Below are positions 7,854 through 20,218 of a stretch of DNA of 64,000 nucleotides, piece by piece. The notes beneath the pieces were generated by a model. It did not search any database, was not told the origin of the DNA, and saw only the letters and a program-made list of their open reading frames with translations. The position numbers and the translations under genes were made by a program. Source of the DNA: Halocalculus aciditolerans (lineage in GTDB: Archaea > Halobacteriota > Halobacteria > Halobacteriales > Halobacteriaceae); NCBI RefSeq assembly GCF_014647475.1, contig NZ_BMPG01000002.1:186001-250000 (forward strand), read 5' to 3'. Position 1 is the first letter of the stretch. Every line of letters begins with the position of its first letter.

Positions 7854-8065
7854 CGGACGACGCCCCAGACCTCCCAGACACGAACACGCTCCGCGCCGTC
7901 GCCGACGACCTCGCCGACGCGCGCGACGCCATCGACGCGCTCCACCTTGGCGACGTCACTCGGACCGAAGGGGAGACTCTGCGCACCCTCCGCGACAAGC
8001 TTGACCACCAAGCGGTGAAGCTCGACCAGAAAGCCGACGCCGTCGACGACCGGAGGGACGCGTGA
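7850..8065 (+). CDS. Small helical element protein, possible integrase accessory
   Basis: A 71-residue, strongly charged protein that is almost wholly helical (LRAVADDLADARDAIDAL, then TLRDKLDHQAVKLDQKADAV). Its length and heptad-like hydrophobic spacing suggest a coiled-coil hairpin. It overlaps the gene before by 4 bp and the integrase GTG by 4 bp (GTGA). Its place directly before the integrase would suit an excisionase-like or chaperone role, but there is no motif to prove it. No named family is recognised. Confidence 0.55.
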   Translation: MTDDAPDLPDTNTLRAVADDLADARDAIDALHLGDVTRTEGETLRTLRDKLDHQAVKLDQKADAVDDRRDA

Positions 8066-9087
8066 ATCCGGAAGACCTCACGCCTCGCGAAGCCGTCAAC
8101 CGCTACGTCGACCGCCGCCGACCTGAGTCGACCGACCATAGCGCGAAGACGTACTGGTACCGGCTGAAACAGTTCGTAGAGTGGTGCGAAGAGAACGGCA
8201 TCGAGCGCGTTAGCGAACTCTCAGGGTGGACGTTCGAGAACTACGAGACCGCCCGCGCCGGCGACGGCGTCGCGAACGTCACGCTCAACGGAGAGATGGG
8301 CGATGTCCGCCTGTTCGTCCGCTACCTCGAACGCATCGAGGCCGTCGACGAAGGCCTCTCCGAGAAGGTTCACGTTCCCAGCGTTTCGCCTGACGAGGAG
8401 AGTTCCGACGTCAAGCTCGACACGCCCGAGGCTCGCGCCCTCCTCAGCTACTACCAACGCTATGAACACGGCTCACGCCGGCACGTCCTCCTCGCGATAC
8501 TCTGGGACACCGGCTGCCGCCTCGGCGCTCTCCGCGGCCTCGACGTCCGCGACTACCACCGTGACGAGCAGTACCTTTCCTTCCGGCACAGACCGGACGC
8601 GGAGACGCCGCTGAAGAAGAAGAGCATGGGGGAACGGCCCGTCGCCATTATGGACGACACGGCGGCCGCGATTAACGCGTACCTCACGAGTGATGACCGC
8701 TGGGAGACGCACGACGAACACGGTCGCGAGCCGCTGCTGTCGAGTCGGCAGGGACGTCCCTCCCAGAACACTGTCCGCGTCTGGACGTACCTCGCGACGC
8801 TCCCCTGCATCCACACGGAGTGTCCGCACGGTCGCGACCCCGACGACTGCCAGTTCACCGAGCGGAACCACGCGAGTAAGTGCCCGTCGTCGAGGAGCCC
8901 CCACCAAGTCCGAACAGGCTCGGTGACGTGGCAACTCGACCGCGGCATCCCGCCCGAGGTCGTCGCCGAACGCGTCAACGCCAGCGTCGCGACCATCAAG
9001 AAGCACTACGACAAGGCCACCGCCCGCGAGCGCATGGAGCACCGCCGCCGTCACTACGTCGACAACCTCGACCTCTACGAAGAATGA
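8062..9087 (+). CDS. Tyrosine recombinase / integrase
   Basis: A 341-residue phage-type integrase. Residues 1-95 form the SAM-like core-binding domain. The catalytic domain shows R153 (GCRLGALRGLD), a lysine cluster at 185-187, H281 and R284 (SPHQVRTG), and the nucleophile Y316 (IKKHYDKA). A cysteine insertion between the active-site boxes (C249, C254, C263, C274) probably binds zinc, a feature of many haloarchaeal integrases. The GTG start overlaps the preceding stop. As the last gene before a non-coding stretch, it should lie next to an attachment site in 9088-9479. Confidence 0.88.
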   Translation: MNPEDLTPREAVNRYVDRRRPESTDHSAKTYWYRLKQFVEWCEENGIERVSELSGWTFENYETARAGDGVANVTLNGEMGDVRLFVRYLERIEAVDEGLSEKVHVPSVSPDEESSDVKLDTPEARALLSYYQRYEHGSRRHVLLAILWDTGCRLGALRGLDVRDYHRDEQYLSFRHRPDAETPLKKKSMGERPVAIMDDTAAAINAYLTSDDRWETHDEHGREPLLSSRQGRPSQNTVRVWTYLATLPCIHTECPHGRDPDDCQFTERNHASKCPSSRSPHQVRTGSVTWQLDRGIPPEVVAERVNASVATIKKHYDKATARERMEHRRRHYVDNLDLYEE

Positions 9088-9479: not shown

Positions 9480-10289
9480 ATGAGGCTTCTCGTCCGATTA
9501 ACGGCACAGGCGGACGCAGAGTATTCGATCTCGTACCACCACAAGCTTCGTGGTCGGTTGTGGCGGGCGTTCGAGGGGACGGCGTTCGACGAGGAGCACG
9601 ACACTCCGAACCCGCGCGGGTGGTCGTTCTCGAATATTTTCCCGTGGGGTTCGATTTCGGAGGGCGACGAGCGGTCGTTGCTCGTCGCGTCTGCGCGGGA
9701 GCCCGTTCTCGCGGCAGTCGCGGAAGACCTCCGTGAGAACCCCGAGTTCAACGTCGGCGAGATGTCCTTCGAGGTCGACGGTCTCACCCAAGTCGATCCG
9801 GACGTCGGCGAACCGGGGACTCGGGGAACGATCGAGACGGCGACGGGTGTGTTCGTACGGCTGTTCGACGAGCACCGCGAGCGGTACGGAATCGACGGGG
9901 AGTACGAGGGGACGCCGACGTACTGGCAGCCCGAGCACACCGTCGAGCCGTTCGCGAACGCGGTAGAGGCGAACCTCCAGCACAAACACGATCAGTTCGC
10001 ACCGGACTACCTGCCCGGTCCGGAGGACGTCGACGGCGACCTCTTCGAGGGCTACGACCTGATCAAGACGTACGCGCTTCCCGTGACGGAAGGCGTCGAG
10101 ATCGAGGCGGTCGTGAGTAAGTGGAAGCTCGATTACCGTGTTCGCGACGACCACCACCGCCGCCACCTGAATCTCGCGTTAGATACGGGGATCGGCGGCC
10201 GGAACGCGCTCGGGTTCGGGTTCGTGAACGTCGTCGACCGGACGCGGCCCGGCGAGACCGAACTGGAGGGCGAGCATGCTTTCCCCTGA
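9480..10289 (+). CDS. cas6: Cas6 pre-crRNA endoribonuclease
   Basis: A 269-residue RAMP protein that cuts the CRISPR transcript within each repeat and, in type I-B, stays on the crRNA 3' handle. The glycine-rich loop that defines Cas6 is near the C-terminus (LDTGIGGRNALGFGFVNV). YHHKLRG near residues 19-25 supplies the likely catalytic histidine. The length fits archaeal Cas6b. It is the first gene of the cas operon and overlaps cas8b by 14 bp, so the whole set is probably one transcript starting upstream of 9480. An inverted repeat just ahead may regulate it. Confidence 0.93.
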   Translation: MRLLVRLTAQADAEYSISYHHKLRGRLWRAFEGTAFDEEHDTPNPRGWSFSNIFPWGSISEGDERSLLVASAREPVLAAVAEDLRENPEFNVGEMSFEVDGLTQVDPDVGEPGTRGTIETATGVFVRLFDEHRERYGIDGEYEGTPTYWQPEHTVEPFANAVEANLQHKHDQFAPDYLPGPEDVDGDLFEGYDLIKTYALPVTEGVEIEAVVSKWKLDYRVRDDHHRRHLNLALDTGIGGRNALGFGFVNVVDRTRPGETELEGEHAFP

Positions 10290-12411
10290 GGAGTTCGAGG
10301 AGGCGTACGATGCCGACGAACTCCGCGAGGAGCTTCCGGCGTCGCCGGTCGCGTCGCTTCGCGACCTCCAGTATCTCTACGGGACGCTCTACACGCTCGC
10401 GACGGCGGGCGGCGGGGAGTACGCGTCGTACCTCACGCCGGACGCGGCGGGCGACCTCGTCGACACCGCCGACAGTCTCGTCGTCGTTCGCGTCGACCTC
10501 TCCGGCGACGACCCCCGGCTCGCCGACGACGAGACCGGCCCCGTCGAGGTGACGCGGTACAGCGACGATCTCGTCGAGAAGGTCGCGCACTGTAAGTATC
10601 CCGCGGCGCGCGGCATCGATCACAGCGTCACGCATCAGGCCGGCCGGAACAGCGACCCGGAGAAGCTCGCGCGGTACGCGAACGAGCGGTTGACGAAGTG
10701 GGCGACCGACGACGTCGTGCAGGAGACCGCCGAGGAGCACGAGAACGGCTGGGTCGTCGACGCGCTCGCGGCGCTCGGCGAGAGCGAGGACGCCCTCGAC
10801 GAAATCGAGGACGGCGTGGAGCGCGAACTCGGCGGGGAGTCCGCGACGGCGCTCCTGACCGTTCGCGTGAAGACGGACCCAGCAGGCGACTACCGGTGGC
10901 CGGGCGAGGTCGACGTCTTCCAGGCGGCGATGCGCGCGCGGAAGCTCTCGAAGCTCGTCACGAAGAACAAGGCCGACGACTCCTCGGGGGACGCCGTCGA
11001 CCTCGTGACCGGACAGTCCGCGCGGACGGTCGGGACCGCGGAGGACCCGCAGAACTACTTCCTCGGCAAGCAACTGGAGAAGTTCCCGGGGCTCGACATC
11101 GAGGAGGCGTGGCGGACGCATCCGATCTCGGAGGACGCGGCGGTCACCGTGATGAACGCGGGGGCCTTCGTCGAGGCCTGTGCGTACCGGACGTTCGGCG
11201 CGAAGGTGTACGCGCTCCCGTACTTCTTCGGGACAGTGAATCCCGAGCGCGCGCAGTCGCTCTACCGCATCCTCTACGCGGCGGCGACGGCGGACGACGA
11301 GTCGCGCATCACCGCCATCGAGCGGGCGTATCAGTACAGGGAGGAGTGCTCGTTCGACGAGAACCGCCTGCGGTTCTACGTTTCCGCCGTGCTGCCGCAT
11401 CAGACCTCGCGGTACGACGTCGTCGGGGAGACGCTGAACGCCCGACTCCTCTATCCGGCCGTCGTCGCGAACGCCCATAGTCGAATCTTGGAGACGGCGG
11501 CGTTCCGCGACGGCGACGACGCGACGGCGGCGCTGCCGACGGCGAACTGGACGCTGCTCTCCGGAGACGGCGCGACCGAGCTTCTCGGACCCGTGACGTC
11601 CGGCTGGTACTTCGCGGAGACGTTCCCGCGGGGTGACGACGACACGGACGCGAGCGCGGACGACCCGCGGATCGAGGCGCTCGTCGACGTCCTCAGCGGC
11701 ACGTCGATTCCCGTCTCGTTCCTCCTCGACGCCTACGTGGACCGCATCGAGGCGGACGCGTCCGACGACGACGTCGAGGGGTTCCCGGTCTTCCGGGTGG
11801 CCTCGCAGTACGCACAGCTCTGCGCGCTCGCCGACGCCGGGGACGGCTTCCTCACCGGCGAGGGCGCGAAGAGACCGATCACCGAACCACCGACGTACGA
11901 GACACGAACCATGGGATCACGAGACGAAATCACTATTCCGGACGGCGGCTTCGCCGGCGAACAGAAACTCGCAGACTTCATCGACGACACGCCCGCGCTC
12001 GCGAACGACCAGCGCTGTGGCGTCTTCCTGCTCGGCGCGCTCGTCGGCGCGGTCGGGAACTACCAGGAGTGGCACGAGGACCGCTCGACGACGCTCGTCG
12101 ACCAGTTCCCCGTGAAGTCGATCACCGCGAATCGCGTGAAGAAGGTCACGCAGGACGCGATCGAGAAGACGCTCACCTACACCCGCCAGGAGAAGAAACG
12201 CGGCGGGCAGACGTATCCGGGAACGAAGTTCGACCACATCGTCGACCGCCTCCGCGAGCGCGTCATCAACCCCGACCCCGACGAGTGGGATCTGGAGAAG
12301 AACGACCTCCGGTTCTACTACGCGCTCGGCGTGACGTACGGGATGAACGACCGCTCGCTCTACGAGAGCGACGACACAGACGACGCGAACGCTGACCCCG
12401 AGGAGAACTAA
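10276..12411 (+). CDS. cas8b: Cas8b large subunit of the type I-B Cascade
   Basis: A 711-residue protein of the haloarchaeal Csh1/Cas8b family by length and position between cas6 and cas7. It recognises the PAM and helps open the target DNA. The recognisable block SVTHQAGRNSDPEKLARY is near residue 120. The helical C-terminal part (about 546-711) corresponds to the small-subunit region. ATG 10276 lies inside the end of cas6, and the stop is 2 bp before the cas7 ATG. In other type I-B systems the small subunit Cas11b is made from an internal start in this gene; see the separate entry at 11911. Confidence 0.9.
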   Translation: MLSPEEFEEAYDADELREELPASPVASLRDLQYLYGTLYTLATAGGGEYASYLTPDAAGDLVDTADSLVVVRVDLSGDDPRLADDETGPVEVTRYSDDLVEKVAHCKYPAARGIDHSVTHQAGRNSDPEKLARYANERLTKWATDDVVQETAEEHENGWVVDALAALGESEDALDEIEDGVERELGGESATALLTVRVKTDPAGDYRWPGEVDVFQAAMRARKLSKLVTKNKADDSSGDAVDLVTGQSARTVGTAEDPQNYFLGKQLEKFPGLDIEEAWRTHPISEDAAVTVMNAGAFVEACAYRTFGAKVYALPYFFGTVNPERAQSLYRILYAAATADDESRITAIERAYQYREECSFDENRLRFYVSAVLPHQTSRYDVVGETLNARLLYPAVVANAHSRILETAAFRDGDDATAALPTANWTLLSGDGATELLGPVTSGWYFAETFPRGDDDTDASADDPRIEALVDVLSGTSIPVSFLLDAYVDRIEADASDDDVEGFPVFRVASQYAQLCALADAGDGFLTGEGAKRPITEPPTYETRTMGSRDEITIPDGGFAGEQKLADFIDDTPALANDQRCGVFLLGALVGAVGNYQEWHEDRSTTLVDQFPVKSITANRVKKVTQDAIEKTLTYTRQEKKRGGQTYPGTKFDHIVDRLRERVINPDPDEWDLEKNDLRFYYALGVTYGMNDRSLYESDDTDDANADPEEN
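11911..12411 (+). CDS. Candidate internal start producing a Cas11b small subunit
   Basis: An in-frame ATG at codon 546 of cas8b begins MGSRDEITIPDGG and would give a 166-residue helical, basic-patched protein ending at the same stop. Independent translation of a Cas11 subunit from the 3' part of cas8b is established for several type I-B, I-C and I-D systems. The size and position fit here. I see no strong Shine-Dalgarno sequence directly upstream, so this remains a candidate. Confidence 0.4.
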   Translation: MGSRDEITIPDGGFAGEQKLADFIDDTPALANDQRCGVFLLGALVGAVGNYQEWHEDRSTTLVDQFPVKSITANRVKKVTQDAIEKTLTYTRQEKKRGGQTYPGTKFDHIVDRLRERVINPDPDEWDLEKNDLRFYYALGVTYGMNDRSLYESDDTDDANADPEEN

Positions 12412-12413
12412 CG

Positions 12414-13493
12414 ATGTCCGAAACCCAATCCGAATCCACTGCTGTCGAGAACCGCTCCGAGATTGTCTTCCTGTACGACGCCGTCGACGCGAACCCGAAC
12501 GAGAACCCGCTCAGCGGCGCGAACCGCCCGCGCATCGACCCCGGAACCCAGCAGGCCATCGTGACGGACGTCCGCCTGAAGCGGTACCTCCGCGACCAGC
12601 TCGACGACGACGGCCACGGCGTCTACATCCGGAACGTGCAGAACGAAGCGGGCTATCAGGCGACTCGCGTGGACCTCCTCGAAGACCGCCTGAAAGGCGT
12701 TGACCTCGACGACTACGACCCGGACGACGACGAGGACGCGGAGCGGCTTCGTGAGGACGTCTTCGGTGAGTTCCTCGACGAGAGCGCGGACGTCCGATAC
12801 TTCGGCGCGACGATGAGCGTCGACACCGACGACGACTACGAGGACCTCCTCCCCGACCACTTCACGGGGCCGGTGCAGTTCTCGCCGGGGAAGTCGATGC
12901 ACGCGGTGAACGAGAACGAGGAGTACGACAGCCTCACGAGCGTCATCGCGACGCAAGGCGAGAAAGAGCAGGGCGGGTTCGACCTCGACGACCACCGCAT
13001 CCAGTACGGGCTCATCAGGTTCCACGGGCTCGTCGACGAACACGGCGCGGAAGACACGAAGCTCACGTCCGAGGACGTCCGGCGGCTGGACACGCTCTGC
13101 TGGCGTGCGCTGAAGAATCAGACCGTGAGCCGGTCGAAAGTCGGACAGGAACCGCGACTCTACTGCCGCGTCGAGTACGCGGAGGAGAGCTACCACCTCG
13201 GTGGGTTGGACAAAGATCTCGCCCTCGACGAGTCGGAGTCGAAGGCCGAAGAGGACCTGCGGAACGTCCGCGACCTGACGCTCGCCGTCGACGACTTCGT
13301 CGACCGTCTCGGGAACGCGGAGAAACAGGTGAAACGCGTCCGCGTCGTCGCGAGCGACGTCCTCCAGTGCTCTTACGACGGCGACGTCGGCGGACCCGTC
13401 GTCCTCTACGACGCGCTCCGCGACGCCGTCGGCGAGGACACGGTGGACGTCGTCGACGTCTACGACGAGTACCCGGAGACGCTGGGAGCGTAG
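12414..13493 (+). CDS. cas7: Cas7 backbone subunit (Csh2)
   Basis: A 359-residue RAMP protein of the type I-B Cas7 family, the repeated backbone that coats the crRNA spacer. The N-terminal core strand reads SEIVFLYDAVDANPNENPL and is followed by VTDVRLKRYLRDQL, both typical of Csh2. The middle contains TGPVQFSPGKSMHAVNE, the family's central glycine-containing strand. It starts 2 bp after cas8b and ends 2 bp before the GTG of cas5, in line with stoichiometric expression from one transcript. It is longer than the compact bacterial Cas7 because of acidic insertions. Confidence 0.92.
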   Translation: MSETQSESTAVENRSEIVFLYDAVDANPNENPLSGANRPRIDPGTQQAIVTDVRLKRYLRDQLDDDGHGVYIRNVQNEAGYQATRVDLLEDRLKGVDLDDYDPDDDEDAERLREDVFGEFLDESADVRYFGATMSVDTDDDYEDLLPDHFTGPVQFSPGKSMHAVNENEEYDSLTSVIATQGEKEQGGFDLDDHRIQYGLIRFHGLVDEHGAEDTKLTSEDVRRLDTLCWRALKNQTVSRSKVGQEPRLYCRVEYAEESYHLGGLDKDLALDESESKAEEDLRNVRDLTLAVDDFVDRLGNAEKQVKRVRVVASDVLQCSYDGDVGGPVVLYDALRDAVGEDTVDVVDVYDEYPETLGA

Positions 13494-13495
13494 CC

Positions 13496-14383
13496 GTGGC
13501 GCAGGAATCGCTCGACGGCTGGTTCGACGAAGGCGAAGAGAGCGCAAGTCGTGGTGAGCGCGACGCTCTGGACCGTTCGTCCGAGCCGAGCGACGGGACC
13601 GCCGAGGCGTCGACGGCTTCGAGTTCGCACGAGTTCCCCGAGCGCTGTCTCTCCTTCACCGTTCGCGGTCCGTGGGGGCACTTCCGGCGCGTCGAAGGGA
13701 ACGTCGTGAAGCAGACGTATCGCGTCATCCCGCGGACGACGGTCGCGGGGCTGCTCGCGGCCGTGCTCGGCATCGGCCGCGACGACTACTACGAGCTGTT
13801 CGCCGAGGGCGCGTCGGCGGTCGCTATCGAGCCCGTCAGCGAGCTCCGAACGCTCAACATGCCGATGAACGCGCTCTCGACCGCGAAGAGCGACCTCACG
13901 TCGCTGAACGGGCGCGGGAAGGTTAGCGTGCGCCTCCCGAACCCGGCGAAGCTCCGCCAGCAACACAACTACGAAGTCCTCGTCGACCCCGCCTACCGCG
14001 TCGACGTCGCGCTCGCCGACGACGAGCGCTACCGGGAACTTCGCGAGACGCTCGACGCGGGGAAGTCTCACTACGTCCCGAGTCTCGGGCTCTCAGAGCA
14101 TCTCGCCGAGATCGACTACCACGGCGAGTACGCCGTCGAAGACGGTTCGAGCGAGGGCGTCGTCGACGTGGATTCGGCGGTGCCGAACGCCGTCGACAGC
14201 GTCGTTCCCGACCCCGGAACGCGGTGTCAGGTCGAGGAGTCACCGGCGTTTATGGAGACTGACGCTGGCGGCCGGACGACGACGGCGTTTACGGCGTACA
14301 CCTACAACCCTGATGCGGGTCCGCTCGCCGTGCGGGATGTCGAAACCTCGCTGGTGGACGGCCGGACAGTGGTGTTCGTCTGA
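13496..14383 (+). CDS. cas5: Cas5 crRNA 5'-handle-binding subunit
   Basis: A 295-residue Cas5b. GTG 13496, two bases after the cas7 stop, is the only close start. The first 45 residues are an acidic low-complexity extension; the RAMP fold then begins with CLSFTVRGPWGHFRRVEG, and the family block RTTVAGLLAAVLGIGRDDYY follows. LNMPMNALSTAKSDL near the middle and a late strand with LVDGRTVVFV complete it. It caps the 5' handle of crRNA in Cascade. The stop directly abuts the cas3 ATG. An internal start after the acidic extension cannot be excluded. Confidence 0.9.
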   Translation: MAQESLDGWFDEGEESASRGERDALDRSSEPSDGTAEASTASSSHEFPERCLSFTVRGPWGHFRRVEGNVVKQTYRVIPRTTVAGLLAAVLGIGRDDYYELFAEGASAVAIEPVSELRTLNMPMNALSTAKSDLTSLNGRGKVSVRLPNPAKLRQQHNYEVLVDPAYRVDVALADDERYRELRETLDAGKSHYVPSLGLSEHLAEIDYHGEYAVEDGSSEGVVDVDSAVPNAVDSVVPDPGTRCQVEESPAFMETDAGGRTTTAFTAYTYNPDAGPLAVRDVETSLVDGRTVVFV

Positions 14384-17029
14384 ATGGCGCTCGACCCAGC
14401 GAAGCGCTACTCTCACCCGCCCGAGGACGGCGACGGCGGAACACTCCTCCTCGACCACCTCCGGGACGTCGCGTTGCGCGTCGACCACGTCGTTCCGGCG
14501 GACGCGACGACGCCGAGCGGCGAGTCGCTCCGCGAAGTCGTCCGGCGTCTCGCGCTCGTCCACGACTTCGGGAAGGCGACGACGTGGTTCCAGCAGTATA
14601 TCGACGACGACCGCCGCGACCCGACGCCCGAGAGGAAGCGGTATCACGCGCCGCTCGGGTCGTTCGCCGCCTACGCCGTCCTCGATGGGGACGAGTTCGC
14701 CGACGAGACGCGCCTCGCCGGGTTCGTCGCCGTCGCGAAGCACCACGGCCGCCTCCCCGACGTCACTGACTACGTCTACAAGCGAACGACCGGCGACCTC
14801 GCCGACGACGCCGACCGGCTGGACGCGCTCGTCCACCAGGCGAAGGACATCTACGACGACGCCCCCGACGTCGCGACGACGGTCTTCGAGGACGCGACCG
14901 GGAGCGAAGACGAATGGGCGGCGTTCGCGCGGTCCCTGGTCAACGACGATTCCCTCCTCGAGGAGATCGCCGAACACGTCTCGACGGACGGACAAGAACT
15001 GACCGACGCGCTGTCCCCGTCCTGCTACGGGCTCGTCCTCCAGTGTTGGAGCGCGCTCGTGCTCGCCGACAAGACGAGCGCGGCCGGCGCGGACCGCGGC
15101 GAAGAGACGTACGGCGCGGAGTCGCCCGACTTGGAGACGCTGAACGGCCACATCGACGGCCTGCAAGCAGCGGCGAACCCCGACCCGGACGGGACGCGCG
15201 AGCAGCGACTCAACTACTGTCGCGCTCGCGCCCGCGAAGCGGTCGTCGAGAACGCCGCGTCGTTCGCCGAGGACGGCGGGGGTGGGGTCGCGACGCTCAC
15301 CCTTCCGACGGGCATGGGGAAGACGCTCACCGGGCTCTCCGCGGCGTTCACGATACGGGACGCGCTCGACGGCGACCGCGTCGTCTACGCGCTCCCCTTC
15401 ACCAGCGTCATCGACCAGGTCGTCGACGACGTCCGAGACATCTACGACGCCGACCTCGCGGGCCCCCTCCTCACCGCCCATCACCACCTCGAGAACGCGG
15501 CTATCGAGTACGACGGCGCGGACGACGCCGCAGACGGCGATAATGCGGCCGACAGAGCGGAGCGAGACGGTGACGTCGCGAAGATGCTCGGCGAAGCGTG
15601 GCGCGCCGGCCTGACGGTGTCGACGTTCGTCCAGCTCTTCGAGAGCCTCGCCGGCCCGCGGAACCGTCAGTCGATGAAGCTCCCCGCGCTCCAGAACGCC
15701 GTGGTAATTCTCGACGAACCGCAGAGCCTCCCGCTGGACTGGTGGAAGCTCGCGCCGCGGCTCGCCGAACTCCTCGTCGACCAGTACGACGCCACCGTGA
15801 TCGCGATGACCGCGACGCAGCCGCTGCTGTTCCGAGACAGCGTCGAGTCAGGAGGGGACGTCCCCGAACTCGTCGACGTCGACGACTACGACTACTTCGA
15901 CGCCGTCGAACGCGTCACCTACGAGTTCGACGACTCGGCCGAACGCTACATCGAATCACGGGCGGAGCCGAACTCCTACGCGGACGCCGCCGCGGAACTC
16001 CGCGCGCTCTCCGATGAGTCCGCGCTCGCCGTGACGAACACCATCGACAGCGCGCGCGAACTCACCGACGCCGTCACCGACGACGGTGGCTTCGTCGACG
16101 TCGCGGACGCGTACGCGGACGAACTGGACGCGGTCGGCGACGCCGACGCCGTCGAAGTCGGCGAAGTCGCCAAGCGCGTCCTCGACGACGGCCGCCGCCC
16201 CGTCCTCCACCTCTCGACGCGCCTCCGCCCCGTCGACCGACTCACCCTCGTCGAGACTGCGAAGCAACTCACAGAGAAAGACTGCGGGCTGCTCGTCGTC
16301 TCGACGCAGCTCATCGAAGCCGGCGTGGACATCAGCTTCGACCGCGTCTACCGCGACTTCGCGCCGCTCGACAGCATCGTGCAGGCCGCCGGGCGCTGCA
16401 ACCGCTCGTTCGAACGCGACCGCGGCACCGTCACCGTCTGGTGGCTCGACGCGCCGAACGACGACAGTCAGAAGACGCCCGCGGAAGCCGTCTACAACAC
16501 TGGCGGTGACGGAGGGGGGACGAAGCTCTTACCCGTCACCGCGAAGGCGGTCGAACAGACACGGAGTCGCGTCGAATCGTTCGACGAAACCGCGATGGCG
16601 AAAACCGCGGTCGAGAGATTCTACCGGATACTCCACGACGTCCGCGACGTCGGGACGCAAGCGTACGCCGACTACGTCGACGACGCGGACGCCGACGCAC
16701 TCGGCGACTGCTCCCTCATCGATCAGAAACCCACCGCCGACGTACTCGTCACCCGAACACCCGCCGAGCGCCGGCGTGTCGAAGCACTCAGAGAGGCGAA
16801 CCGAACGTTCGACTTTGACGCCCTCGACCGCCTCCGCGCGGAAACGAAGCCTATCCGGCTCTCGATTCCGCTCTACGACGACGAGACGAAGGACGCGATC
16901 CTCGACCTCCCTCCGGTCATCGAGGACGAAGGGCTGTACGCACTCGACACGCACCAGTACCGGGACCACTTCAACACCAGCACCGGGTTCACGGTCCCCG
17001 AGAGCACGGTCGCCCACCAGTTCCTATGA
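14384..17029 (+). CDS. cas3: Cas3 helicase-nuclease
   Basis: An 881-residue fused HD nuclease and superfamily 2 helicase that degrades Cascade-marked DNA. The HD domain is N-terminal, with HDFGKATTWFQQYI (H60, D61). The Walker A motif lies in LPTGMGKTLTGL (about 306-317) and the DEAD-type box reads VVILDEPQSLP (about 440). Motif VI is QAAGRCNRS (about 665). Domain order and length are normal for type I-B. It starts immediately after cas5, and its last bases overlap the cas4 ATG (ATGA). All nuclease and helicase motifs look intact, so interference should be possible. Confidence 0.94.
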   Translation: MALDPAKRYSHPPEDGDGGTLLLDHLRDVALRVDHVVPADATTPSGESLREVVRRLALVHDFGKATTWFQQYIDDDRRDPTPERKRYHAPLGSFAAYAVLDGDEFADETRLAGFVAVAKHHGRLPDVTDYVYKRTTGDLADDADRLDALVHQAKDIYDDAPDVATTVFEDATGSEDEWAAFARSLVNDDSLLEEIAEHVSTDGQELTDALSPSCYGLVLQCWSALVLADKTSAAGADRGEETYGAESPDLETLNGHIDGLQAAANPDPDGTREQRLNYCRARAREAVVENAASFAEDGGGGVATLTLPTGMGKTLTGLSAAFTIRDALDGDRVVYALPFTSVIDQVVDDVRDIYDADLAGPLLTAHHHLENAAIEYDGADDAADGDNAADRAERDGDVAKMLGEAWRAGLTVSTFVQLFESLAGPRNRQSMKLPALQNAVVILDEPQSLPLDWWKLAPRLAELLVDQYDATVIAMTATQPLLFRDSVESGGDVPELVDVDDYDYFDAVERVTYEFDDSAERYIESRAEPNSYADAAAELRALSDESALAVTNTIDSARELTDAVTDDGGFVDVADAYADELDAVGDADAVEVGEVAKRVLDDGRRPVLHLSTRLRPVDRLTLVETAKQLTEKDCGLLVVSTQLIEAGVDISFDRVYRDFAPLDSIVQAAGRCNRSFERDRGTVTVWWLDAPNDDSQKTPAEAVYNTGGDGGGTKLLPVTAKAVEQTRSRVESFDETAMAKTAVERFYRILHDVRDVGTQAYADYVDDADADALGDCSLIDQKPTADVLVTRTPAERRRVEALREANRTFDFDALDRLRAETKPIRLSIPLYDDETKDAILDLPPVIEDEGLYALDTHQYRDHFNTSTGFTVPESTVAHQFL

Positions 17030-17616
17030 TCGACGACACAGCCGGAGACGGTGACGACACCGCCCCCTCCGACGACCCCGTCGACCGCCTCCTCGCGTCC
17101 GCCCGCGACGAATCGATCGAGGACGACGTGCACGTCACCGGCGTGATGATGCAGTATTACGAGGTCTGTACGCGCGAACTCTGGTTCGACTCGCGGGACA
17201 TCGAAATCGACCGGGACAACGCCGCCGTCGCGCGCGGCACTCGCGTCGACGACGAAGCCTACAGCGAGAAACGCCGGCACGTCTCCATCGACGGCACCAT
17301 CGCCATCGACGTCCTCGACGACGGCCGCGTGATGGAAGTCAAGCCCTCCTCGGCGCTCGTCGACCCCGCGAAACTCCAACTCCTCTACTACCTCTGGTAC
17401 CTCAAGCACGTCACCGGCGTCGACCGCGACGGCGTCCTCGCACACCCCAGAGAACGCCGCCGCGAAGACGTCGAACTCACCCCCGAGAACGAGGAGTGGG
17501 TCGAAGACGCGATTCGCGGCGTCGTCGACGTCATCGAACGCGACAGCCCGCCCGCCCCCACCGAGAAGCCGTTCTGTGAATCCTGCGCCTACTACGACTT
17601 CTGCTGGAGCTGCTAA
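17026..17616 (+). CDS. cas4: Cas4 RecB-like nuclease of spacer acquisition
   Basis: A 196-residue PD-(D/E)xK nuclease that trims prespacers and helps define the PAM end and orientation. The active-site strand is GRVMEVKPSS with the upstream acidic IAIDVLDDG. Four cysteines that should hold an Fe-S cluster are visible: one near residue 48 (YEVCTREL) and the C-terminal set C184, C187, C193 and C196 in FCESCAYYDFCWSC. It overlaps cas3 by 4 bp and is followed 3 bp later by cas1, forming the adaptation module cas4-cas1-cas2. Confidence 0.93.
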   Translation: MIDDTAGDGDDTAPSDDPVDRLLASARDESIEDDVHVTGVMMQYYEVCTRELWFDSRDIEIDRDNAAVARGTRVDDEAYSEKRRHVSIDGTIAIDVLDDGRVMEVKPSSALVDPAKLQLLYYLWYLKHVTGVDRDGVLAHPRERRREDVELTPENEEWVEDAIRGVVDVIERDSPPAPTEKPFCESCAYYDFCWSC

Positions 17617-17619
17617 CCC

Positions 17620-18612
17620 ATGAACGACAACTTCCACGTGTTCAGCGACGGACGCATCGAACGCACCGACGACACCATCCGACTCGTCCGCGAAGACGGC
17701 GAGAAACAGTACCTCCCCATCGAGCGCGCCGAGGCCATCTACCTCCACGGCCAAGTCGACTACAACACCCGCCTCGTCTCCTTCCTCAACGAGCAGGGAA
17801 TCGCGATGCACGTCTTCGGCTGGAACGACTACTACGCCGGCTCCATCATGCCGAAACGCGGCCAGACCTCCGGCCAAACCGTCGTCGCCCAAGTCCGCGC
17901 CTACGACGACCCCGACCACCGCCTCACCATCGCGAAACGCTTCGTCGACGGCAGCATCCACAACATGCGCGCGAACGTCTCCTACTACCACAACCGAGAC
18001 CACGACTTCACGACCGCCCTCGACACCCTCGACGACCGACAAGCCGCCATCGACGACGCCACCGACGTCAACGAACTCATGGGCGTCGAAGCCGGCGCAC
18101 GCAGAGCCTACTACGCCACCTTCGACGACATCCTCCCCGACGACTTCGCCTTCCGCGGCCGCACCTACAACCCCCCGGACAACGAGACGAACAGCCTCAT
18201 CTCCTACGCCAACTCACTCGTCTACGCCAACACCGTCTCCGCCATCCGAGCCACCGCCCTCGACCCGACCGTCAGCTACCTCCACGAACCCGGCGAACGC
18301 CGCTACTCGCTCTCCCTCGACATCGCCGACATCTTCAAACCGATCCTCGCCGACCGCGTCATCTTCCGCCTCCTCAACCGCCGCCAACTCTCCACCGACG
18401 ACTTCGAATCCGACCTCAACGGCTGCCTCCTCACCGACGACGGCCGCGAAACCTTCACCCGAGCCCTCGAAGAAACCCTCGACCAAACCGTCCACCACCC
18501 CACCCTCGACCGAAACGTCAGCTACCAATATCTCCTCCGCCTCGAAGCCTACAAACTCAAAAAACACCTCCTCACCGGCGAAGAATACGTCCCCCTCAGG
18601 CGGTGGTGGTAA
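17620..18612 (+). CDS. cas1: Cas1 integrase of spacer acquisition
   Basis: A 330-residue Cas1, the catalytic subunit that inserts prespacers at the leader-repeat junction. The metal-binding residues are visible: Glu in MGVEAGARRAYYATF (about 154), His in LHEPGERRYSLSLDIAD (about 221) and Asp in the same block (about 232). The length is standard. Third-position C is used almost exclusively from here through cas2, more strictly than in cas8b or cas3. The stop overlaps the cas2 ATG by one base. Confidence 0.95.
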   Translation: MNDNFHVFSDGRIERTDDTIRLVREDGEKQYLPIERAEAIYLHGQVDYNTRLVSFLNEQGIAMHVFGWNDYYAGSIMPKRGQTSGQTVVAQVRAYDDPDHRLTIAKRFVDGSIHNMRANVSYYHNRDHDFTTALDTLDDRQAAIDDATDVNELMGVEAGARRAYYATFDDILPDDFAFRGRTYNPPDNETNSLISYANSLVYANTVSAIRATALDPTVSYLHEPGERRYSLSLDIADIFKPILADRVIFRLLNRRQLSTDDFESDLNGCLLTDDGRETFTRALEETLDQTVHHPTLDRNVSYQYLLRLEAYKLKKHLLTGEEYVPLRRWW

Positions 18613-18875
18613 TGCCCTACATCATCGCCGTCTACGACGTCGACGCCGACCGCACCCACCTCTTCCTCAAACTCTTCCGCCGCTACCTCACCCACATCCA
18701 GAACTCAGTCCTCGAAGGCTTCATCACCGACGGCCGCCTCCAACGCCTCCGCGGCGAAATAGAAGCCCTCCTCGAACCCCACGAATCCGTCCTCATCTAC
18801 GAAGTCTCCAGCGAAGACTACGTCGACCGCACCGTCTTCGGAACCGACCCCAAAGCAGACGACACCTTCCTCTAA
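18612..18875 (+). CDS. cas2: Cas2 structural subunit of the adaptation complex
   Basis: An 87-residue ferredoxin-like protein beginning MPYIIAVYDVDADRTH, with the conserved first-strand aspartate. FLKLFRRYLTHIQNSVLEG and SVLIYEVSS follow, which is a typical archaeal Cas2. A frame upstream adds three residues from GTG 18603, but ATG 18612 overlapping the cas1 stop is the natural start. Cas2 dimerises between two Cas1 dimers to set spacer length. It is the last gene of the operon; the CRISPR leader begins right after its stop. Confidence 0.94.
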   Translation: MPYIIAVYDVDADRTHLFLKLFRRYLTHIQNSVLEGFITDGRLQRLRGEIEALLEPHESVLIYEVSSEDYVDRTVFGTDPKADDTFL

Positions 18876-19035
18876 CCGTCGACCCCCCGGGGGTTCAGGG
18901 ACTACTAACGGTCGACGGAAACGCGGGCCGACCGGGCTCGCCGCGACGGGCCGCGTTCAGGGACTACTAACGGTCGACGGAAACACCCAAGGCAAACCCC
19001 ACAGTACAAGCCCTACACGCCCCGAATCGGGCATG
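18876..19035 (+). promoter_or_regulatory. CRISPR leader
   Basis: 160 bp between cas2 and the first repeat. It lies at the end of the array where repeats are identical, while repeats decay at the other end, so this is the leader side. It starts with CCGTCGACC, which can pair with GGTCGACGG in either of two 30-bp direct repeats, and includes the palindrome CCCCCGGGGG at 18884-18893. No clear TATA box is seen. Confidence 0.75.
18893..18984 (+). repeat. Two identical 30-bp direct repeats in the CRISPR leader
   Basis: Copies at 18893-18922 and 18955-18984 are identical over 30 bp (starting GTTCAGGGAC, ending GACGGAAAC) and separated by 32 bp. The sequence differs from the CRISPR repeat next door, but size and spacing resemble one repeat-spacer-repeat unit. 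Confidence 0.9.
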
Positions 19036-20175
19036 GTTACAGACGAACGCTAGAGCGGTTGAAGAGGCGTCCGCGAGAATTGCACGCTCGTAGGCGTCCT
19101 CGTTACAGACGAACGCTAGAGCGGTTGAAGAGAGGATGCGGCAGACGAGGGTTGGGGTTGCGCGTCCCGTTACAGACGAACGCTAGAGCGGTTGAAGATG
19201 CCAACACAAGCATCCGGTCATTCTCAGACGTCGTTACAGACGAACGCTAGAGCGGTTGAAGATCGTTGTGGTTAATCCACGTAACGGGCCCGTCGTCAGT
19301 TACAGACGAACGCTAGAGCGGTTGAAGACTCGGCGCGTTCGGCACAGTCAGACTGTCGTCAAGTTACAGACGAACGCTAGAGCGGTTGAAGGCTCAAGTT
19401 CGGCGTCGACGACGGGCGATGCGGCGTGTTACAGACGAACGCTAGAGCGGTTGAAGGCAGTACCATCCCGGATTCGTACCTCTACGGCGAACGTTACAGA
19501 CGAACGCTAGAGCGGTTGAAGGGAACTGGCGCTCGGTCAGGACCTTCTCTCGGCTATGTTACAGACGAACGCTAGAGCGGTTGAAGGTCTTCGCGCGCGT
19601 CTTCGAGGCAGACGATTGCGAGTTACAGACGAACGCTAGAGCGGTTGAAGTCTGATGCGGCCGACGCTCCGCGAGCTCGACGACCAGTTACAGACGAACG
19701 CTAGAGCGGTTGAAGTGTGATGCCGAGAAGCTGGCCGAGGAACGAGAGGACGGTTACAGACGAACGCTAGAGCGGTTGAAGTGCCGACGAGCACCTGCCG
19801 CGGGTGCTCGCACACCGCGTTACAGACGAACGCTAGAGCGGTTGAAGTGCCGACGAGCACCTGCCGCGGGTGCTCGCACACCGCGTTACAGACGAACGCT
19901 AGAGCGGTTGAAGCCTCGCTACCAGCGGTCTCGCCACCGCGGGCGTCCTCGGTTACAGACGAACGCTAGAGCGGTTGAAGCGCTCACGACCGTTCGACGG
20001 CTCACGACACGGTGCGTTACAGACGAACGTTAGAGCGGTTGAAGCGGTATGGGAGAAATCGACCTTCTCTCGCTCTCGGGTTACAGATGAACGCTAGAGC
20101 GGTTGAATCGGGACGTAAATCCCGAAGAGGAGGGCCTCGTTCCAGTGTTACAGACGAACGTTTGATGCGTTAGGG
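19036..20175 (+). CRISPR. Type I-B CRISPR array, 18 repeats and 17 spacers
   Basis: The repeat core is 29 nt (starts GTTACAGACG, ends GCGGTTGAAG) and recurs every 64-67 bp. Repeats 1-15 are identical; repeat 16 (20016) has one change, repeat 17 (20080) has two, and repeat 18 (20147) is degenerate after its first 14 bases. The leader is therefore on the left and transcription runs left to right. Spacers are 35-38 nt if the 29-nt core is used. The base following the core is A after repeats 1-5, G after 6-9, T after 10-13 and C after 14-17, so the true repeat is probably 30 nt. Spacers 12 and 13 (19782-19818, 19848-19884) are identical. Several spacers read through as protein-coding fragments, as expected for viral or plasmid targets. 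Confidence 0.98.
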
Positions 20176-20218
20176 ATCAGGCGTGCGTCGATATATCACG
20201 GTCTGTGGTACGGCGCCC

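Follow-up and report, generated by a model that had tools for sequence, protein, structure and literature searches.

Last repeat base of a haloarchaeal type I-B CRISPR array sorts into four blocks, consistent with inheritance from the leader-proximal repeat

In Escherichia coli type I-E, the last repeat base is derived from the invader (cited in PMC4326828). The protospacer-adjacent motif (PAM) TTC also ends in C, so that a PAM origin of the last repeat base is conceivable in type I-B too. Repeat polymorphism has been reported mainly at the trailer repeat, and a changed leader-proximal repeat may be passed to later repeats (review PMC8047081). The array described here lies in a 64,000-nt stretch of the Halocalculus aciditolerans genome (contig NZ_BMPG01000002.1), hereafter the window. 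It resembles the haloarchaeal type I-B arrays of Haloferax volcanii and Haloarcula hispanica in its 30-nt repeat with a TTGAAGC end, its spacers of mostly 34–38 nt and its gene order Cas6-Cas8b-Cas7-Cas5-Cas3-Cas4-Cas1-Cas2. However, base 30 of its repeat is not a constant C but passed through C, T, G and A in blocks. Two features recall E. coli: the base that closes the repeat borders on the spacer and, in most arrays, is identical with the final base of the PAM. Here, in contrast, it is very probably inherited and may differ from the viral base at −1. As in the cases reviewed in PMC8047081, a changed leader-proximal repeat appears to have been passed to later repeats, but the changes in the window recur at one end base, giving several blocks.

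The locus is a complete type I-B system, with cas8b, Cas1b and full sets of effector and adaptation genes adjoining the array. The cas operon (9480..18875, forward strand throughout) comprises cas6 (9480-10289), cas8b (10276-12411), cas7 (12414-13493), cas5 (inside the open reading frame 13367-14383), cas3 (14384-17029), cas4 (17026-17616), cas1 (17620-18612) and cas2 (18609-18875), identified by matches to the NCBIfam models TIGR01877, TIGR02591, TIGR02590, TIGR02592, TIGR00372, TIGR03641 and TIGR01573 and to the cas3 core and HD models. The leader (18876..19035, forward strand) extends from cas2 to repeat 1 and can be aligned with the leaders of the genome's two other arrays. Because the operon and the leader lie to the left of the array, repeat 1 (R1) is leader-proximal and, together with the core mutations in R16 and R17 on the right, this identifies it as the youngest. 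The repeat fits the 30-nt haloarchaeal form GTTnCAGACGAAC...GTTGAAGC, and the 8-nt 5′ handle of the crRNA predicted from the sequence is GTTGAAGN, the −1 base of which varies among repeats. A tyrosine-recombinase-like gene (8062-9087) lies just 5′ of cas6; it scored slightly under the cut-off for Pfam Phage_integrase and far under that for XerC/D.

Direct reading of the 17 repeats bore out the four-block sorting of base 30 claimed in the original prediction, the order from leader to trailer being A5-G4-T4-C4 (positions 19065 to 20109). All four blocks are on the forward strand. The A-block (19036..19362), the youngest, holds repeats 1–5 and their spacers, with repeats starting at 19036, 19102, 19169, 19233 and 19299 and A at 19065, 19131, 19198, 19262 and 19328. 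The G-block (19363..19621) holds repeats 6–9 and their spacers (repeat starts 19363, 19428, 19493 and 19558; G at 19392, 19457, 19522 and 19587), and the T-block (19622..19884) holds repeats 10–13 and their spacers (repeat starts 19622, 19687, 19753 and 19819; T at 19651, 19716, 19782 and 19848). The C-block (19885..20146), the oldest, holds repeats 14–17 and their spacers (repeat starts 19885, 19952, 20016 and 20080; C at 19914, 19981, 20045 and 20109), and a degenerate 18th repeat (20147..20176, forward strand) stands at the trailer end. The 29-nt core is identical in repeats 1–15, as had been stated, and changes are found at the old end, namely C15>T in R16 and C9>T plus G29>T in R17. The T-block includes units 12 and 13 (R12 and R13, each with its spacer; 19753-19884), which form an exact 66-nt tandem duplication of repeat and spacer, in agreement with the duplication of spacers 12 and 13 reported earlier. 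Units 5 and 6 of the sister array L001 in the same genome are likewise duplicated.

Perfectly blocked arrangements make up 24 of the 214,414,200 possible ones, so that recomputation (shuffling P = 1.1e-7) matched the previous estimate of about 1 in 10 million; with the duplicated R13 removed, P was 4.8e-7. At base 31, where the spacer begins, the array reads GGTTCCCGTCGGGCGGG without clear sorting, and the block pattern thus ends at base 30; a sorting of base 31 that was suggestive on first look was rejected as weak. Adjacent spacers shared their first base at frequencies of 0.257 (lag 1) and 0.275 (lag 2), which are not above expectation, and frequent 31-nt duplications are therefore not indicated.

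Base 30 was compared across 141 arrays with 3003 repeats, among which arrays from related species are non-independent. Because part of this set had been picked for non-C bases, rates are quoted, unless stated otherwise, from the unbiased subset, namely the arrays found by a scan of GTDB genomes. Of the 2132 interior repeats in the unbiased haloarchaeal arrays, 1998 had C at base 30, 104 had T, 18 had A and 12 had G, and L001 and L002, which share the window's genome and have different cores, carry C in every interior repeat, with exceptions only at the trailer end. The near universality of C indicates that the repeat is 30 nt long and usually C-ending, and that the C-block of the window is likely ancestral. 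The proposed time order from C through T and G to A thus fits the terminal C that almost every haloarchaeal type I-B repeat carries, those of L001 and L002 included.

Non-C bases occurred in about 20 other arrays, and in the clear cases they were blocked leader-ward, the trailer end usually carrying C. Among these arrays are L192 (T29-G35-C17; 81 repeats), L191 (A13-T11-C2), L216 of Halocatena salina (T17-A18-C9), L214 (C26-T5-G9-C6), L218 (C22-G18-C12), L219 of Halosegnis marinus (A11-C11), L215 of Haloarcula marismortui (T23-C2), L105 of Haloferax elongans (A4-C20) and L084 of Halomarina halobia (A10-C3). Tabulating base 30 in related arrays, the check that had been suggested, thus revealed blocks rather than unsorted bases, with isolated deviations scattered at base 30 in some short or degenerate arrays such as L201. 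The 26 genomes of the family include no other member of the window's genus. Base 30 reverts to C in L218, L214 and L212, so that temporal order is readable from position and not from base identity. L219 and L220 (G514:C2) lie on one Halosegnis marinus plasmid and have a common spacer at the A-to-C boundary at two places, suggesting a duplicated array.

Along the window array, variants occupy the contiguous blocks that inheritance from the leader-proximal repeat requires, and no evidence contradicting inheritance was found. Considering these results, we propose the following scenario. Acquisition would copy base 30 from the leader-proximal repeat, which would have changed at this base three times, from C to T, from T to G and from G to A; younger repeats would have inherited each new base, and the blocks would thus represent spacer cohorts in time. 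The copying step, which the original prediction had also put forward, is supported by the blocked arrays of relatives and by the viral −1 bases of T-block spacers described below. We hold the explanation as a whole, comprising a 30-nt repeat, C as the first base 30, copying from the leader-proximal repeat and three inherited changes, with high confidence.

Base 30 is the most changeable position of the repeat. The unbiased arrays showed six inherited changes at base 30 and 20 at the other 29 positions together (Poisson P 8e-5), positions 1 and 23 being the next most changeable with four inherited changes each. The survey rate at base 30 was 6 in 2198 neighbour pairs, or 0.27% per acquisition (unbiased set). 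In the window array, about 15 acquisitions brought three changes, an excess (P 9e-6 taken as a single array, about 1e-3 corrected for 141 arrays) that a uniform mutation rate explains poorly. Changes look commoner after the loss of C, with 10 in 499 acquisitions from non-C repeats (8/392 in selected arrays, 0/94 in unbiased arrays and 2/13 in the window genome) and 5 in 2052 from C (unbiased), though the comparison is approximate, as a non-C/C boundary was the criterion by which the selected arrays had been picked. We take repeat positions 23 and 30 to be the −8 and −1 bases, respectively, of the crRNA handle. In Haloferax, the −8 base of the handle may be any base and the −1 base tolerates C, U and A but not G, changes from C to U and from C to A retaining interference and a change from C to G abolishing it (PMC4326828). 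This tolerance at −8 and −1 makes weak constraint one reason for changeability. The frequent changes at base 30 are probably due to its double role: it would lie at the second cut made by Cas1-Cas2 and would also form position −1 of the handle, where some substitutions are tolerated. However, although G at −1 abolished interference in Haloferax volcanii, G-blocks of 35, 18, 10 and 9 repeats exist in L192, L218, L196 and L214, respectively, and plain neutrality is thus not established.

An alternative to ordinary mutation competes with the preferred explanation on the origin of the changes and not on their inheritance. Cas1-Cas2 may at times cut after base 29 and so duplicate only 29 nt, the first base of the spacer becoming base 30 and being fixed in younger repeats by subsequent 30-nt duplications. 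Such capture would account for repeated changes at the end base, and in the scenario proposed above, too, some changes may come from a second cut made one base short, with the incoming spacer supplying base 30. Spacers acquired together with a change at base 30 fell short of their array mean by 0.61 ± 0.23 nt (n = 25, permutation P = 0.01), while neighbouring spacers (±1 to 3) were not shorter and changes at other positions gave +0.15 ± 0.21; in the window, two of the three transitions have 34-nt spacers, the array mean being 35.4. Furthermore, the singleton G repeat of L061, changed from C, has a viral match, HGPV-1, with G at −1, though this agreement has a chance of about 1 in 3 and the match is without a PAM. 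However, likelihood modelling with a separate length distribution for each array allowed a capture fraction of 0 to about 0.8 and disfavoured the view that all events were captures; because the likelihood fails to separate the models, the spacer-length result (P 0.01) is not claimed as evidence of capture. Nor do the new bases clearly track the first bases of spacers, T being the commonest new base and G the commonest in spacers. We thus regard capture as possible but the less favoured origin. On the question of how the changes arose, ordinary mutation under weak constraint receives somewhat the larger share of our belief and base capture somewhat the smaller. It is only tentatively suggested that in haloarchaeal type I-B systems the second cut occasionally falls one base short, whereupon incoming DNA would replace the end base of the repeat and the new base would be inherited. 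If so, a single letter left by invaders would persist in the repeat and at position −1 of all later guide RNAs. The HGPV-1 match is that of spacer 25 of L061/L206 in Haloferax sulfurifontis, which agrees with Halogeometricum pleomorphic virus 1 at 34 of 35 bases, no TTC PAM being present.

The blocks could also have been built by recombination of arrays with a common core and different bases at position 30, since duplications of units and arrays do occur (units 12 and 13; L219 and L220). Four donors would be required, however, and the 29-nt core was absent from the genome's other arrays and from 392 genomes of the order, making this origin very unlikely.

A PAM origin would mean that every protospacer supplies base 30 through its PAM, as in type I-E of E. 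coli (PMC4326828), and that the blocks reflect shifts in PAM preference. It draws on the identity of the usual C with the last base of TTC and on the invader-derived last repeat base of E. coli. The window's own spacers yielded no viral source in BLAST of phage records, which returned no halovirus, or in scans of viral contigs, and the PAM test thus rests on relatives. Further scans of viral contigs with transition spacers gave no match; spacer 12/13 shares 21 nt with an IMG/VR contig, but this was set aside as chance, the match spanning only 24 of 36 bases. Exact matches of transition spacers in five haloarchaeal records (BLAST against plasmids), at places without annotated genes, were taken as the arrays themselves. 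Seven T-block spacers with viral protospacers were available from L215 and L224, the latter from the window's own family. One matched HJTV-4 at 35/35 bases with TTC upstream, four matched ChaoS9 at 91–97% with TTC, TCC, GGG and AGG upstream, one matched HATV-3 at 87% with TTC, and one matched HSTV-1 at 86% with TTC. The −1 base was C in five of the seven, G in two and T in none, and an exact TTC adjoined the spacer start in four; in addition, C-block spacer 45 of L214 has TTC in virus BJ1. As the viral −1 base was never T, base 30 is neither PAM- nor protospacer-derived in the tested T-block arrays, in line with the original prediction that it is not part of the protospacer, and TTC directly at the spacer start places the repeat-spacer joint exactly after base 30. 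A PAM origin is thus refuted for L215 and L224 and, as it would further require three PAM switches in 17 acquisitions, is highly improbable for the window. The idea that random spacer ends fell into this order by chance, in favour of which it can be said that the pattern was picked after looking, is refuted by similar blocking in about 20 other arrays and, with P about 1e-7, has a negligible probability. Base 30 is part of the 30-nt unit that is duplicated, both in this array and in its relatives; it was first C and comes from neither the PAM nor the protospacer.

Natural sequence shows that in type I-B the old repeat, and not the PAM, can supply the final base of a new repeat, a distinction that C-ending repeats and TTC PAMs normally mask. 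The blocks provide a built-in clock mark by which spacer cohorts are separable without strain comparisons, and they draw attention to the base at the repeat-spacer joint, which changes more readily than any other in the repeat. This base is also the guide-RNA position at which G reportedly abolishes interference in Haloferax, and spacer cohorts may therefore differ in activity. The guides of the G-block (four spacers, repeats 6–9), with G at −1, might be inactive, and those of the A-, T- and C-blocks should function, judging by the Haloferax result. To judge by the long G-blocks of other species (35, 18, 10 and 9 repeats), G may not be ruinous everywhere.

The leader of the window array carries a putative off-target integration (18893..18984, forward strand). 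Two identical 30-nt direct copies (18893-18922 and 18955-18984) flank a 32-nt insert (18923-18954). The insert is identical to a segment of a host type II/IV secretion ATPase gene (G000:C7:54565-54596), and in the leader alignment the sister leader of L001 has one copy of the 30-nt segment without the insert. The site thus shows a repeat-length target duplication, a spacer-length insert from elsewhere and an empty counterpart in the sister leader, and likely records a natural event in which Cas1-Cas2 integrated a piece of self DNA off target. As the target duplication is exactly of repeat length, it independently supports a 30-nt duplication; the 30-nt repeat of the original prediction is thereby upheld by this site, by the C-ending family repeat in the survey and by spacers starting after base 30. 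Off-target spacer integration yielding new CRISPR-like loci is known from work in E. coli, where a spacer-length insert likewise lies within repeat-length target duplications, whereas the present case is apparently natural, lies in the leader of an archaeal array and carries an insert from a host gene.
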